This document shows, one piece after another, positions 19,935-26,527 of a stretch of DNA of 26,527 nucleotides. This stretch comes from Candidatus Dadabacteria bacterium (GTDB lineage: Bacteria; Desulfobacterota_D; UBA1144; Nemesobacterales; JADFKM01): contig JADFKM010000026.1 of the NCBI GenBank assembly GCA_022564935.1, positions 1-26,527 of the forward strand, written 5' to 3'. Position 1 is the stretch's first letter, and each line of letters opens with the position of its first letter. The notes under the pieces were generated by a model. The model was given only the letters and a program-made list of their open reading frames with translations, did not search any database and was not told the origin of the DNA. The translations under genes were made by a program, and so were the position numbers.

Positions 19935-20639
19935 ATGGAAACCATTTCATTACCCCTTGACGAGGTTGTCGCACTGGAGGATTTTTCAGGGGTAATACCC
20001 CTGTTTCCGCTCTCCACGGTGGTTTTCTTCCCGCACACACTCCTCCCTCTTCACATATTCGAGCCTAGGTACAGGGAGATGGTAAACGACGTCATCGACA
20101 ACGAAAAGATAATCGGCATGGTGCTCCTCAAGCCGGGCTGGGAGAAGGACTACGCCGGTAACCCCGAGATCTTCGATGTGGCGGGCATGGGAAGGATCAT
20201 AAACGTCGAGCCGGCAAAGGACGGCAGGATGAACATCGTCCTCTACGGTCTGAAGCGGGTTAGAATAGTGGATATTGTAAAAGAGCACCCCTACAGGTCG
20301 GCGAAAGTGGAGATAATGGACAACGAGCACACCCGGAATGATAAGCAATACAGCAAGAGACTGGACGAGCTGGTAGCGAGCTGGAACAAGCTGCTCGGCA
20401 AGGAGTACGAATCGAAGAGGATCAGACTGCAGCGGGACTTCGGCCTCGAACAGGCCGTTGATTTCATCGCCTCTTCCGAGATATCAAACGTATTCGAGAA
20501 GCAGGACATTCTGGAGGAAAAAAGCCTGCATAAAAGGGCCGAAAAGGTGATCAGCTACCTCGAAACCAGGTACGAAATAGTCTCCATAATGGAAGGGAAA
20601 AGGCCCGATCAGATCTTAGAAAAACGAAATCTTAACTAA
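19935..20639 (+). CDS. Lon N-terminal (substrate-binding) domain protein
   Basis: 234 aa consisting of a stand-alone Lon N-terminal domain (LON_substr_bdg) without ATPase or protease parts. It opens with VIPLFPLSTVVFFPHTLLPL, then HIFEPRYREMV, and a central G-x-G-R-I-I-N-V-E-P-x-x-D-G-R-x-N strand, followed by a Lys/Glu-rich helical C-terminal half. Such proteins are common in bacteria and are thought to bind peptides or partner proteases, but function is unproven. The first ~19 residues precede the conserved domain. There is no SD; a perfect TATAAT six bases before the ATG supports a leaderless transcript and this start. Its stop codon overlaps that of the convergent hydrolase. Confidence 0.92.
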   Translation: METISLPLDEVVALEDFSGVIPLFPLSTVVFFPHTLLPLHIFEPRYREMVNDVIDNEKIIGMVLLKPGWEKDYAGNPEIFDVAGMGRIINVEPAKDGRMNIVLYGLKRVRIVDIVKEHPYRSAKVEIMDNEHTRNDKQYSKRLDELVASWNKLLGKEYESKRIRLQRDFGLEQAVDFIASSEISNVFEKQDILEEKSLHKRAEKVISYLETRYEIVSIMEGKRPDQILEKRNLN

Positions 20640-21424
20640 CCCAATAAAAAATCAAGGACGATGTCGTCGACTTCGCTCTGCTTCTCCCTCCAGAACCCGT
20701 GTCCAACCCCCTCGAACTCAACAAGGCGCGAGCCGGGAATCAGCCTGGAAAGCTCTCTTGAGCGCCGGGGAGCAACTATCAGATCCCTCTCGCCGAGCAT
20801 GATGAGCGTGGGGCAGCTTATACCTCCAACAAGCTCCGAGGTGTCGTGCCTCTGGCAGGCACGGTTCTGCCGCAAGTAACCGGCGACGGCTTCGGGGCTT
20901 TCCCTGATCATCGACATTGCGTTCTTTATCGACGAAAGGTTCCGCTCGATGTACTCCCTTGTGTAGCCCCAGAACAGCGCGCACATCCACACAGAACCGA
21001 ACCCGAGCTTGGCGGCGGTCTCCCGGCCGAGTCGTAGGATCTCATCTCCTACTTCGTCCCTCGAGGCGCAGGTACAGCCCAGCACAAGCTTGCTTACCTT
21101 CTCCGGGTGCTTTATGGCTAACCACTGCCCTATCATCCCGCCCATGGACTTGCCCGCAACACGGGCCGACTCGATACCGAGGTGCTCTATCAAAGCGGCA
21201 GTATCGTCGGCCATCTGCTCGATTGAGTACGGCTCGTCGGGCTTGTCCGTTTTGCCCGCACCCCGGTTGTCGAGCACGACCACCTTGAAGTGCCTAGAAT
21301 AAAGCGGCACCTGCGTCGCCCAGCTCTGCGTCTGACTCCCCAGCCCGCCTATCAATACCACTGGCTCGCCCTTACCGTGAACCTCGTAGTACATCGTTAT
21401 ACCGTTTACTTTCGCAAAAGGCAC
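20636..21424 (-). CDS. Alpha/beta hydrolase
   Basis: 262 aa, with the complete catalytic triad visible: nucleophile Ser93 (VAGKSMGGMIGQ), Asp214 (MLGERDLIV) and His242 (EGVGHGFW). The HG-type oxyanion region reads LIGGLGSQTQSW, and LDNRGAGKTDKP is typical of the 3-oxoadipate enol-lactonase/haloperoxidase-like group. Substrate cannot be assigned. The start is taken as GTG at 21424, since GAGAGGG then sits eight bases upstream and the protein begins PFAKVNGITMYYEVHG as relatives do; a GTG at 21433 would leave no room for an SD. No signal peptide, so cytoplasmic. Confidence 0.92.
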   Translation of the reverse strand: MPFAKVNGITMYYEVHGKGEPVVLIGGLGSQTQSWATQVPLYSRHFKVVVLDNRGAGKTDKPDEPYSIEQMADDTAALIEHLGIESARVAGKSMGGMIGQWLAIKHPEKVSKLVLGCTCASRDEVGDEILRLGRETAAKLGFGSVWMCALFWGYTREYIERNLSSIKNAMSMIRESPEAVAGYLRQNRACQRHDTSELVGGISCPTLIMLGERDLIVAPRRSRELSRLIPGSRLVEFEGVGHGFWREKQSEVDDIVLDFLLG

Positions 21425-21475
21425 CTTATACACCCTCTCAATAATTCGCCCATCAACCTCGCAGACAACACCCCA

Positions 21476-21916
21476 TCATTTCCCCTCAGTTCCCCCGCCG
21501 GGCTTGTCCCTGATGCTCTCAAGGTACTCCTTCAAAATCACGACCGCCGCCATCTTGTCCACCACCTTTCTGCGCTTCTCCCTGCTCACATCGGCCTCGA
21601 TGAGCGCCCGCTCGGCCTCGAATGTCGAGAAGCTCTCGTCCCAGTGCACGACGCTGACGCCCAGCTCGGCGGCCACCCGCTCGGAAAACCTGAGTATTTC
21701 CTTCCCCCTGCCTCCCACAGTGCCGTCACCCACATACGGCACTCCGACCACTATCTCGCCCGGTCTGTACTCGGCCACTATCTTCGCGAGCTCCTCGATG
21801 TCCCGCTCCAGCGTTTTTCTCCTCAGCGTGACGAGGCCGTTCGCGGTGATGCGAAGCTCGTCGCTCACCGCCACGCCTATGGTCTTAGTACCTACATCCA
21901 GGGCGAGAACCCTCAT
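21476..21916 (-). CDS. ruvX: RuvX/YqgF family nuclease (pre-16S rRNA processing)
   Basis: 146 aa. RNase H-like fold with the conserved start MRVLALDVGTKTIGVAVSDE (Asp7), the central IVVGVPYVGDGT motif, WDESFSTFEAERAL, and the late Asp in VDKMAAVVILKEYLES. YqgF/RuvX proteins are near-universal in bacteria and process the 5' end of 16S rRNA; the older label is putative Holliday junction resolvase. The start at 21916 fits the conserved N-terminus, although the frame is open upstream to 21988. No SD; a TACAAT lies seven bases upstream. Confidence 0.95.
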   Translation of the reverse strand: MRVLALDVGTKTIGVAVSDELRITANGLVTLRRKTLERDIEELAKIVAEYRPGEIVVGVPYVGDGTVGGRGKEILRFSERVAAELGVSVVHWDESFSTFEAERALIEADVSREKRRKVVDKMAAVVILKEYLESIRDKPGGGTEGK

Positions 21917-21923
21917 CGAAAAA

Positions 21924-21929
21924 ATTGTA
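21924..21929 (-). promoter_or_regulatory. Putative -10 for a leaderless ruvX transcript
   Basis: TACAAT on the minus strand (5/6 match) ends seven bases before the ruvX ATG, placing +1 about one base before the start codon. No well-spaced TTGACA is present. Confidence 0.35.
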
Positions 21930-22060
21930 CCTGAAGTACACCGAGGCCAATAACGGGGTATGTGAGGGATTTGAGCTCCGCCGCACACAGTCCCGACTTA
22001 CAAGGGTTCATAAATTTATCGCATACTCGTCTTTAGTGGAGGGCAGTATACTACAAAATT

Positions 22061-25717: not shown

Positions 25718-25746
25718 TTGACAATCCCACCCGATTTTCGTAAAAT
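25718..25746 (+). promoter_or_regulatory. Strong promoter driving the riboswitch leader
   Basis: Perfect TTGACA (25718-25723), exact 17-bp spacer, TAAAAT (25741-25746). Predicted start near 25753, just ahead of the riboswitch aptamer; the full leader to the ATG at 26030 would be about 277 nt. Confidence 0.8.
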
Positions 25747-25769
25747 AAGGGTTAGAATCGATCTAAAAT

Positions 25770-25858
25770 GAAAGGTCAAACCGCCCGAAAGGGTGGGATG
25801 TAAAGCCATCGGCCTAAGGGGGGGTGACTCTCCTAGGGCGGCAGGGTTGCCAAATGAG
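25770..25858 (+). promoter_or_regulatory. Cyclic di-GMP-I riboswitch (GEMM)
   Basis: The aptamer's conserved blocks appear in order: AGGTCAAACC, a first hairpin CCGCCC-GAAA-GGGTGG with the GNRA tetraloop, then GGATGTAAAGCC (consensus GGACGCAAAGCC), ATCGGCCTAAG with the tetraloop-receptor-like CCTAA, a variable second stem, and the closing GGCAGGGTTGCC. This matches the c-di-GMP-I class, which binds c-di-GMP and controls genes for motility, pili, adhesion and exported proteins. It lies between a near-consensus promoter and an exported protein gene. The switching direction (on or off) is not settled by the aptamer alone. Confidence 0.93.
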
Positions 25859-25871
25859 GATTAGTCGTTTA

Positions 25872-25898
25872 CGGTAGCAATTCGGCTACCGCCGTTTT
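25872..25898 (+). terminator. Hairpin downstream of the riboswitch, possible expression platform
   Basis: Perfect 7-bp stem CGGTAGC (25872-25878) and GCTACCG (25885-25891) with a 6-nt loop, followed by CCGTTTT. It is terminator-like, but the T-run is only four, so it may be weak or part of an alternative fold. Its position just after the aptamer fits a transcription-attenuation platform. About 130 nt of further leader precede the ATG. Confidence 0.5.
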
Positions 25899-26029
25899 CC
25901 CCATCACAATCCTGTGAAATTTTCCCTTTCAGATTTGGGTCGGAAGGAAGAACGAAGCATTTTGGCTCCGGTTTCCTCAATAAGATGCTTAGGTTCAGCT
26001 TTCGAACAGCACCGTAGAAGAGAAATACA

Positions 26030-26527
26030 ATGCATTACGCGCTAAAGCTCTTTTTTGCATTTTCGCTTGCGGCTCTAGCCGTCGACGTCGCAAACCCCGG
26101 TTTTTATGCATCGCTCATAAGCGGCGATAACATCGGCTGGGTCGAGCACAAAGAGCCCAAACCCGTTAACTTGAAAGCGGCTAAAATCACAGCCCCCGCT
26201 AAAGCTGAAGAAATATCCAAACCGGTAGAAAGTGAGCCTCTCTCCCCAATCAACTTGCAAATACAGCCCGTGCAAGCTCCGCCTCAGGCGCACGAGCCTG
26301 AGCTCGTGATAAACCACGAGCTCCCGTACAATGAGGCCGGACCGTTATGGTCGAATTCGTACGAAATCACAAACTATTCCACAGAATCCTACGAAATCGC
26401 ACAAAAGCACGACGTCAAGGAATTGAGGAACAAGACCGAGCAATTGAGGCGGGAATACCACCGGGCTATGAAAACAAGCGGTAAACGCAAGCGTAAGGAA
26501 ATCAATTACGAAAGGGACAGAACCTAC
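26030..26527 (+). CDS. Exported protein under c-di-GMP riboswitch control (partial, runs off the window)
   Basis: ATG at 26030 opens a frame that stays open for 166 codons to the window end. The N-terminus (MHYALKLFFAFSLAALAVDV) is a signal peptide or membrane anchor. Residues ~45-105 are Pro/Lys/Glu/Ala-rich and probably unstructured; about 105-135 carry a Tyr/Asn/Ser segment (LWSNSYEITNYSTESYEI, with Y-E-I repeated); the rest is a charged, Lys/Arg/Glu-rich helix. No family recognised in the visible part; a domain may lie beyond the edge. SD is weak (GAAGAG about eight bases upstream). Placement behind the riboswitch implies expression tuned to c-di-GMP, as for adhesins, matrix or pilus-related proteins (inference). 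Confidence 0.75.
   Translation, partial: MHYALKLFFAFSLAALAVDVANPGFYASLISGDNIGWVEHKEPKPVNLKAAKITAPAKAEEISKPVESEPLSPINLQIQPVQAPPQAHEPELVINHELPYNEAGPLWSNSYEITNYSTESYEIAQKHDVKELRNKTEQLRREYHRAMKTSGKRKRKEINYERDRTY

Follow-up and report, generated by a model that had tools for sequence, protein, structure and literature searches.

What does the only GEMM-I riboswitch in a Candidatus Dadabacteria genome control? The window analysed here is the whole of contig JADFKM010000026.1 (26,527 nucleotides, nt; assembly GCA_022564935.1), and its edge at 26527 is the contig end. Near this edge, a riboswitch aptamer of the cyclic di-GMP class I (c-di-GMP-I or GEMM-I) is followed by an open reading frame (ORF) at 26030 that runs off the contig. 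An earlier note, made from the sequence alone, had proposed a c-di-GMP-I riboswitch before an uncharacterised exported protein, its gene cut by the window edge. This proposal has held, with a strong Rfam match and with the same aptamer class present before homologues. The locus is an ordinary riboswitch class before an undescribed, conserved and narrowly distributed protein family. The link between the two is probably functional, since relatives have the same switch before the same kind of gene. The two main features are as follows.

25765..25854, + strand: c-di-GMP-I (GEMM-I) riboswitch aptamer, RF01051 (cmscan)
26030..26527, + strand: gene cut at its 3' end, for a small and probably membrane-anchored member of an unnamed Dadabacteria protein family (profile, AlphaFold)

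The aptamer and its ligand

The aptamer matches RF01051 over its full length (model positions 1-87 of 87) with 65.8 bits against a cut-off of 35 (E 4.9e-11). This is the Rfam check that had been suggested for the GEMM call, and the call is borne out. The host genome (G000; 1.99 Mb, 104 contigs) has no second GEMM-I. Residue numbering and roles follow PMC3764141, in which G20, A47 and C92 are the ligand-contact bases of c-di-GMP-I. The window aptamer retains G20, C22, A23, A25, the GAAA loop (of the GNRA type), G42, G45, A47-A49 and C92. Here, G20 was mapped by script, and A47-A49 and C92 were read from the covariance-model alignment on the same mapping. Like other members of its class, it is placed in a 5' leader, here that of a gene of membrane or export type.

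The base that corresponds to G20 is described as a selectivity factor and not a hard filter, and mutations low in stem P2 alter both affinity and selectivity (PMC9262584). The riboswitch for cyclic GMP-AMP (cGAMP) has A where c-di-GMP-I has G20 (PMC6274999). The cGAMP-sensing GEMM-Ib aptamers of Geobacter share the overall fold of the window aptamer but carry this A (A14 in the structure, PMC6274999), whereas the window has G. As G20 is kept, c-di-GMP stays the best ligand guess from sequence, affinity aside.

An unnamed family of probably membrane-anchored proteins

The ORF begins with an ATG at 26030, five codons downstream of an in-frame TAG, and is open for 166 codons up to 26527. Its coding score of +0.084 exceeds those of the other two forward frames (-0.50 and -0.62) but lies below that of the other window genes (0.15-0.37). 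Its membership of a protein family speaks for a real gene. No usable match was found in Pfam, NCBIfam, PHROGs or PDB; Pfam matches to the Bap31 coiled coil and spectrin were below the cut-off and were judged to be helix-composition matches. To that extent, the statement of the earlier note that the protein has no recognised family remains true, but a profile places it in an unnamed one.

The relatives searched were 60 genomes, from an order of seven numbered families and from a small-genome family of the same class. With the window ORF as query, one weak match was obtained outside the host genome, in G025 (29% identity, E 0.002). When the G025 protein, of 148 amino acids, was used as query in turn, 19 genomes had a match at E up to 0.1. 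One of these, a weak match in G024 (L082), was set aside as an unrelated longer protein after its sequence was read, and a profile search found the family in 18. A profile built without the window protein recovers it with E 7.7e-5 among 2338 targets, while the same profile reported none of 2000 locally shuffled versions. On this profile evidence, the window ORF belongs to a small, unnamed family of proteins and has diverged from its other members. The named records that match the family are mostly from Candidatus Dadabacteria, along with one labelled Deltaproteobacteria and one Desulfobacterota. No fitting Pfam family was found for three further members, and the family profile gave no match by sequence among PDB chains. 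Foldseek against PDB returned nothing at E < 0.001, the best matches being generic helical bundles such as MazG-like ones.

The family is marked by an N-terminal hydrophobic helix, a variable low-complexity linker, an LW..sY (LW.nsY) motif and a helical C-terminal domain with a conserved Tyr. In the AlphaFold model of a full-length homologue, L147, a helix at 3-26 and a disordered linker are followed by helices at 99-113, 116-136 and 139-163. The confidence score (pLDDT) of this three-helix domain (99-163) is mostly above 90, and its block means are 93-97 across most of this stretch. The truncated window protein is modelled with the same layout at lower, moderate confidence. It has an N-terminal hydrophobic segment, a Pro-rich linker and a charged C-terminal part, the last being the conserved helical domain of the family. 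It shares the helix, the low-complexity linker, LW.nsY and the helical domain with other members (L147, L145, P0002), but it lacks their METIGK N-terminus and their YW motif, and its Pro-rich linker is longer. The homologues start with METIGK and a conserved hydrophobic stretch and are therefore read as anchored proteins with a probable N-in, C-out topology. The window protein is likewise predicted to be exported or membrane-held, probably anchored by its N-terminal helix. The host genome also encodes two tandem paralogues of the family at a contig end (G000:C69:266-718 and 1047-1502, L076), neither with a riboswitch at E up to 0.5.

Riboswitch and gene among the relatives

GEMM-I was found in 21 of the 60 genomes, and genomes of the order hold up to nine copies each. 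Four genomes of a single genus from another taxonomic family (G001, G007, G021 and G027) have an aptamer directly before the family gene on the same strand, its start 208-210 nt upstream of the ATG. The same aptamer upstream of homologues, which the earlier note had suggested looking for, is thus seen. GEMM-I is present in 17 of the 18 genomes that have the family and in 4 of the 42 that do not (Fisher p 2.5e-10, kinship uncorrected); counted by genus of the order, the table is 11/1/2/3 (p 0.05). As pilM is far more widespread, pili alone would not explain the pattern. No other Rfam elements were found upstream of the homologues that lack GEMM-I. Two gains of the linkage, or else frequent losses, would explain this distribution.

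GGDEF domains are present in all 18 genomes with the family, and the host has five GGDEF genes as well as PilZ domains. Elsewhere in the order, GEMM-I leaders stand before pilM genes, by agreement of coordinates, and, as judged by eye from translations, before genes of a pilus ATPase, polysaccharide export, a transglycosylase and PilZ. Such genes behind these leaders fit a surface-attached programme. Large proteins starting with a PilZ-like region were also noticed by eye immediately after GEMM-I leaders (L133, L134, L139 and others); at loci of this type, both the RNA and the protein may be targets of c-di-GMP. One host GGDEF domain (L055, G000:C89:17486-17959) has Asn for Asp in the GH..GD..L motif but is otherwise of the GGDEF type, and the other four keep Asp. 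Hypr enzymes are marked by serine at this position. In the literature, an S347D mutant of GSU1658 is named.

The leader and its expression platform

Three features were identified in the leader around the aptamer.

25718..25746, + strand: sigma-70-type promoter TTGACA-17-TAAAAT (consensus scan, 11/12 matches)
25855..26029, + strand: expression platform, 175 nt, mode not assigned (folding)
25872..25891, + strand: 7-bp hairpin CGGTAGC-AATTCG-GCTACCG, then TTTT at 25895-25898 (sequence, predicted in both folds)

The near-perfect promoter and the downstream hairpin of the earlier note are both present. The promoter scan found one site against a mean of 0.6 in shuffles, so the promoter by itself is not significant; it is credible because it lies 18 nt upstream of the aptamer. 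The riboswitch transcript is immediately preceded by a ferritin-like gene (PF00210, 25042-25548, + strand).

Compared with shuffled sequences, the leader has a more stable fold (z -3.7), and the aptamer stems by themselves could account for this extra stability. On folding, GCAGGGUUG (25841-25849) is able to pair with CAAUCCUGU (25907-25915). Helices that compete with the 3' end of the aptamer do exist, yet they are no better than in shuffled sequence. Helices that would switch against P1, in the window and in the leaders of genus-2, are matched by 8-85% of shuffles, and hence no claim is made on an ON or an OFF switch.

Proposed mechanism and its alternatives

From the computed aptamer, protein family, repeated linkage and domain layout, the following course of events is proposed, in which we infer the ligand, the topology and the adaptor role. 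The promoter at 25718 would give an mRNA with the GEMM-I aptamer in its leader. Binding of cellular c-di-GMP would change the fold of the 175-nt platform, and this refolding would tune how strongly the ORF at 26030 is expressed. The N-terminal helix of the small protein would most likely fix it in the inner membrane and leave its linker and helical domain in the periplasm. Its most likely function would be that of an adaptor or a structural component in the surface-associated state, not that of an enzyme. Such c-di-GMP-dependent tuning of a membrane-anchored adaptor is considered moderately probable. The earlier note had called the protein a c-di-GMP 'effector'; in strict use, this word denotes the binder of the messenger, a role taken here by the RNA. 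For the window protein, a role in biofilm, pilus or adhesion is conjectural.

Several findings weigh against this proposal. At the base of P2, the window aptamer has a U21-U46 mismatch, whereas G-C is present in 62 of 69 readable aptamers of relatives; its base 44 is U, and 63 of the 69 keep C44. The conserved P2 base, in which 21 pairs with 46 and C44 with G83, is therefore absent, although a U44-G83 wobble is possible. These changes lower the certainty on affinity and not on riboswitch class, as they lie outside the Rfam cut-off criteria. P1 is weak as well (-4.4 kcal/mol), and unlike typical c-di-GMP-I riboswitches, the window has no recognisable expression platform. The terminator scan of the + strand flagged no intrinsic terminator, the hairpin at 25872-25891 included, and a terminator in the leader was rejected as unsupported. 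The folds gave no clear case of ribosome-site sequestration in the leader. Sequence identity of the window protein to its relatives reaches only 15-20%. The family loci of twelve other genomes have no riboswitch at E up to 0.5, and c-di-GMP control is thus not universal in the family. Lastly, the topology is read from the sequence, and the N-terminal hydrophobic segment, which is present, may be a cleaved signal peptide, as the earlier note had it, and not an anchor. A compensatory A21-U46 pair instead of G21-C46 is seen at the P2 base of a GEMM-I in another genome (L110, G008:C662:22241-22331).

The alternative that survives best, though it is unlikely, is that the aptamer is decaying or of low affinity and regulates no more at normal c-di-GMP levels, the gene being expressed without it. 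The unusual P2 base, the weak P1, the lack of a distinct platform and the single GEMM-I of the genome all speak for decay. Nevertheless, the aptamer keeps its high score, with P2, P3, the GAAA loop and the pocket residues G20, A47-A49 and C92 intact, and a GEMM-linked homologue in G001 also has an aptamer changed at positions 44 and 46.

Very unlikely is a coincidental linkage, in which frequent GEMM-I leaders landed before a family gene twice. The high copy number of GEMM-I in the order would allow it, and most family members have no GEMM-I. Against this, a single aptamer among about 2,000 G000 genes and the 5-9 in each genus-2 genome both meet the same rare family, and by a hand estimate the chance is about 1e-5 to 1e-6 if these are independent.

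Least likely of all is that the ligand is a different cyclic dinucleotide, for example 3',3'-cGAMP, through a selectivity shift from the low-P2 changes: the Asn of L055 favours this, but the main selectivity base G20 is unchanged where the cGAMP riboswitch has A (PMC6274999), and Ser occurs at the place of that Asn in none of the GGDEF domains read.

Genomic position and the end of the gene

The tuning of a membrane-anchored adaptor by c-di-GMP thus remains the preferred reading, and the surroundings of its gene were compared with those of the homologues.

19935..21988, strand not specified: LON_substr_bdg, alpha/beta hydrolase and RuvX genes, 4 kb before the ORF (Pfam; tblastn to the G003 and G002 loci)

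In G002, the family gene adjoins LON-domain, alpha/beta hydrolase and ruvX genes, and in G003 the hydrolase and RuvX are at the matching place beside it. In G003 and most other relatives, the family gene is convergent with mlaE, of an MlaE permease-lipoprotein pair. At the end of host contig C91, a lipoprotein-mlaE pair is followed on the opposite strand by the 3' end of a family gene, ending in TELTYERYRTYSDALKIKNSF and a stop. The last 34 bases of the window are identical to this end at 29 positions, and because of the five mismatches, the two are not claimed to be one gene; the C91 end may be the continuation of the window gene or a tandem copy. The comparison suggests that the window gene lies at, or in tandem at, an ancestral ruvX-family-mlaE locus and closes about 11 codons past the window. 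Early closure of the frame together with a lack of conservation had been named in the earlier note as a result that would speak against it; the frame probably does close soon, but the protein is conserved in relatives. At the other end, the window carries a TPR-CHAT protein of 960 amino acids (46-2928, - strand; PF12770, E 3.8e-47).

Significance for Candidatus Dadabacteria

In the literature searched, whose coverage is incomplete, no paper was found that joins Dadabacteria with c-di-GMP riboswitches. As an outside chance, a lineage-specific family of riboswitch-controlled, periplasm-facing adaptors would form an undescribed c-di-GMP arm in Candidatus Dadabacteria, and the window aptamer would be a natural P2-base variant (U21-U46, U44) with retuned affinity or ligand preference. 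The changed P2 base provides a natural test of the range over which GEMM-I affinity and specificity can drift. An unannotated protein family is repeatedly under c-di-GMP-I control and is almost confined to genomes with such riboswitches, and it offers a short list of targets for studying surface life in uncultured Dadabacteria.
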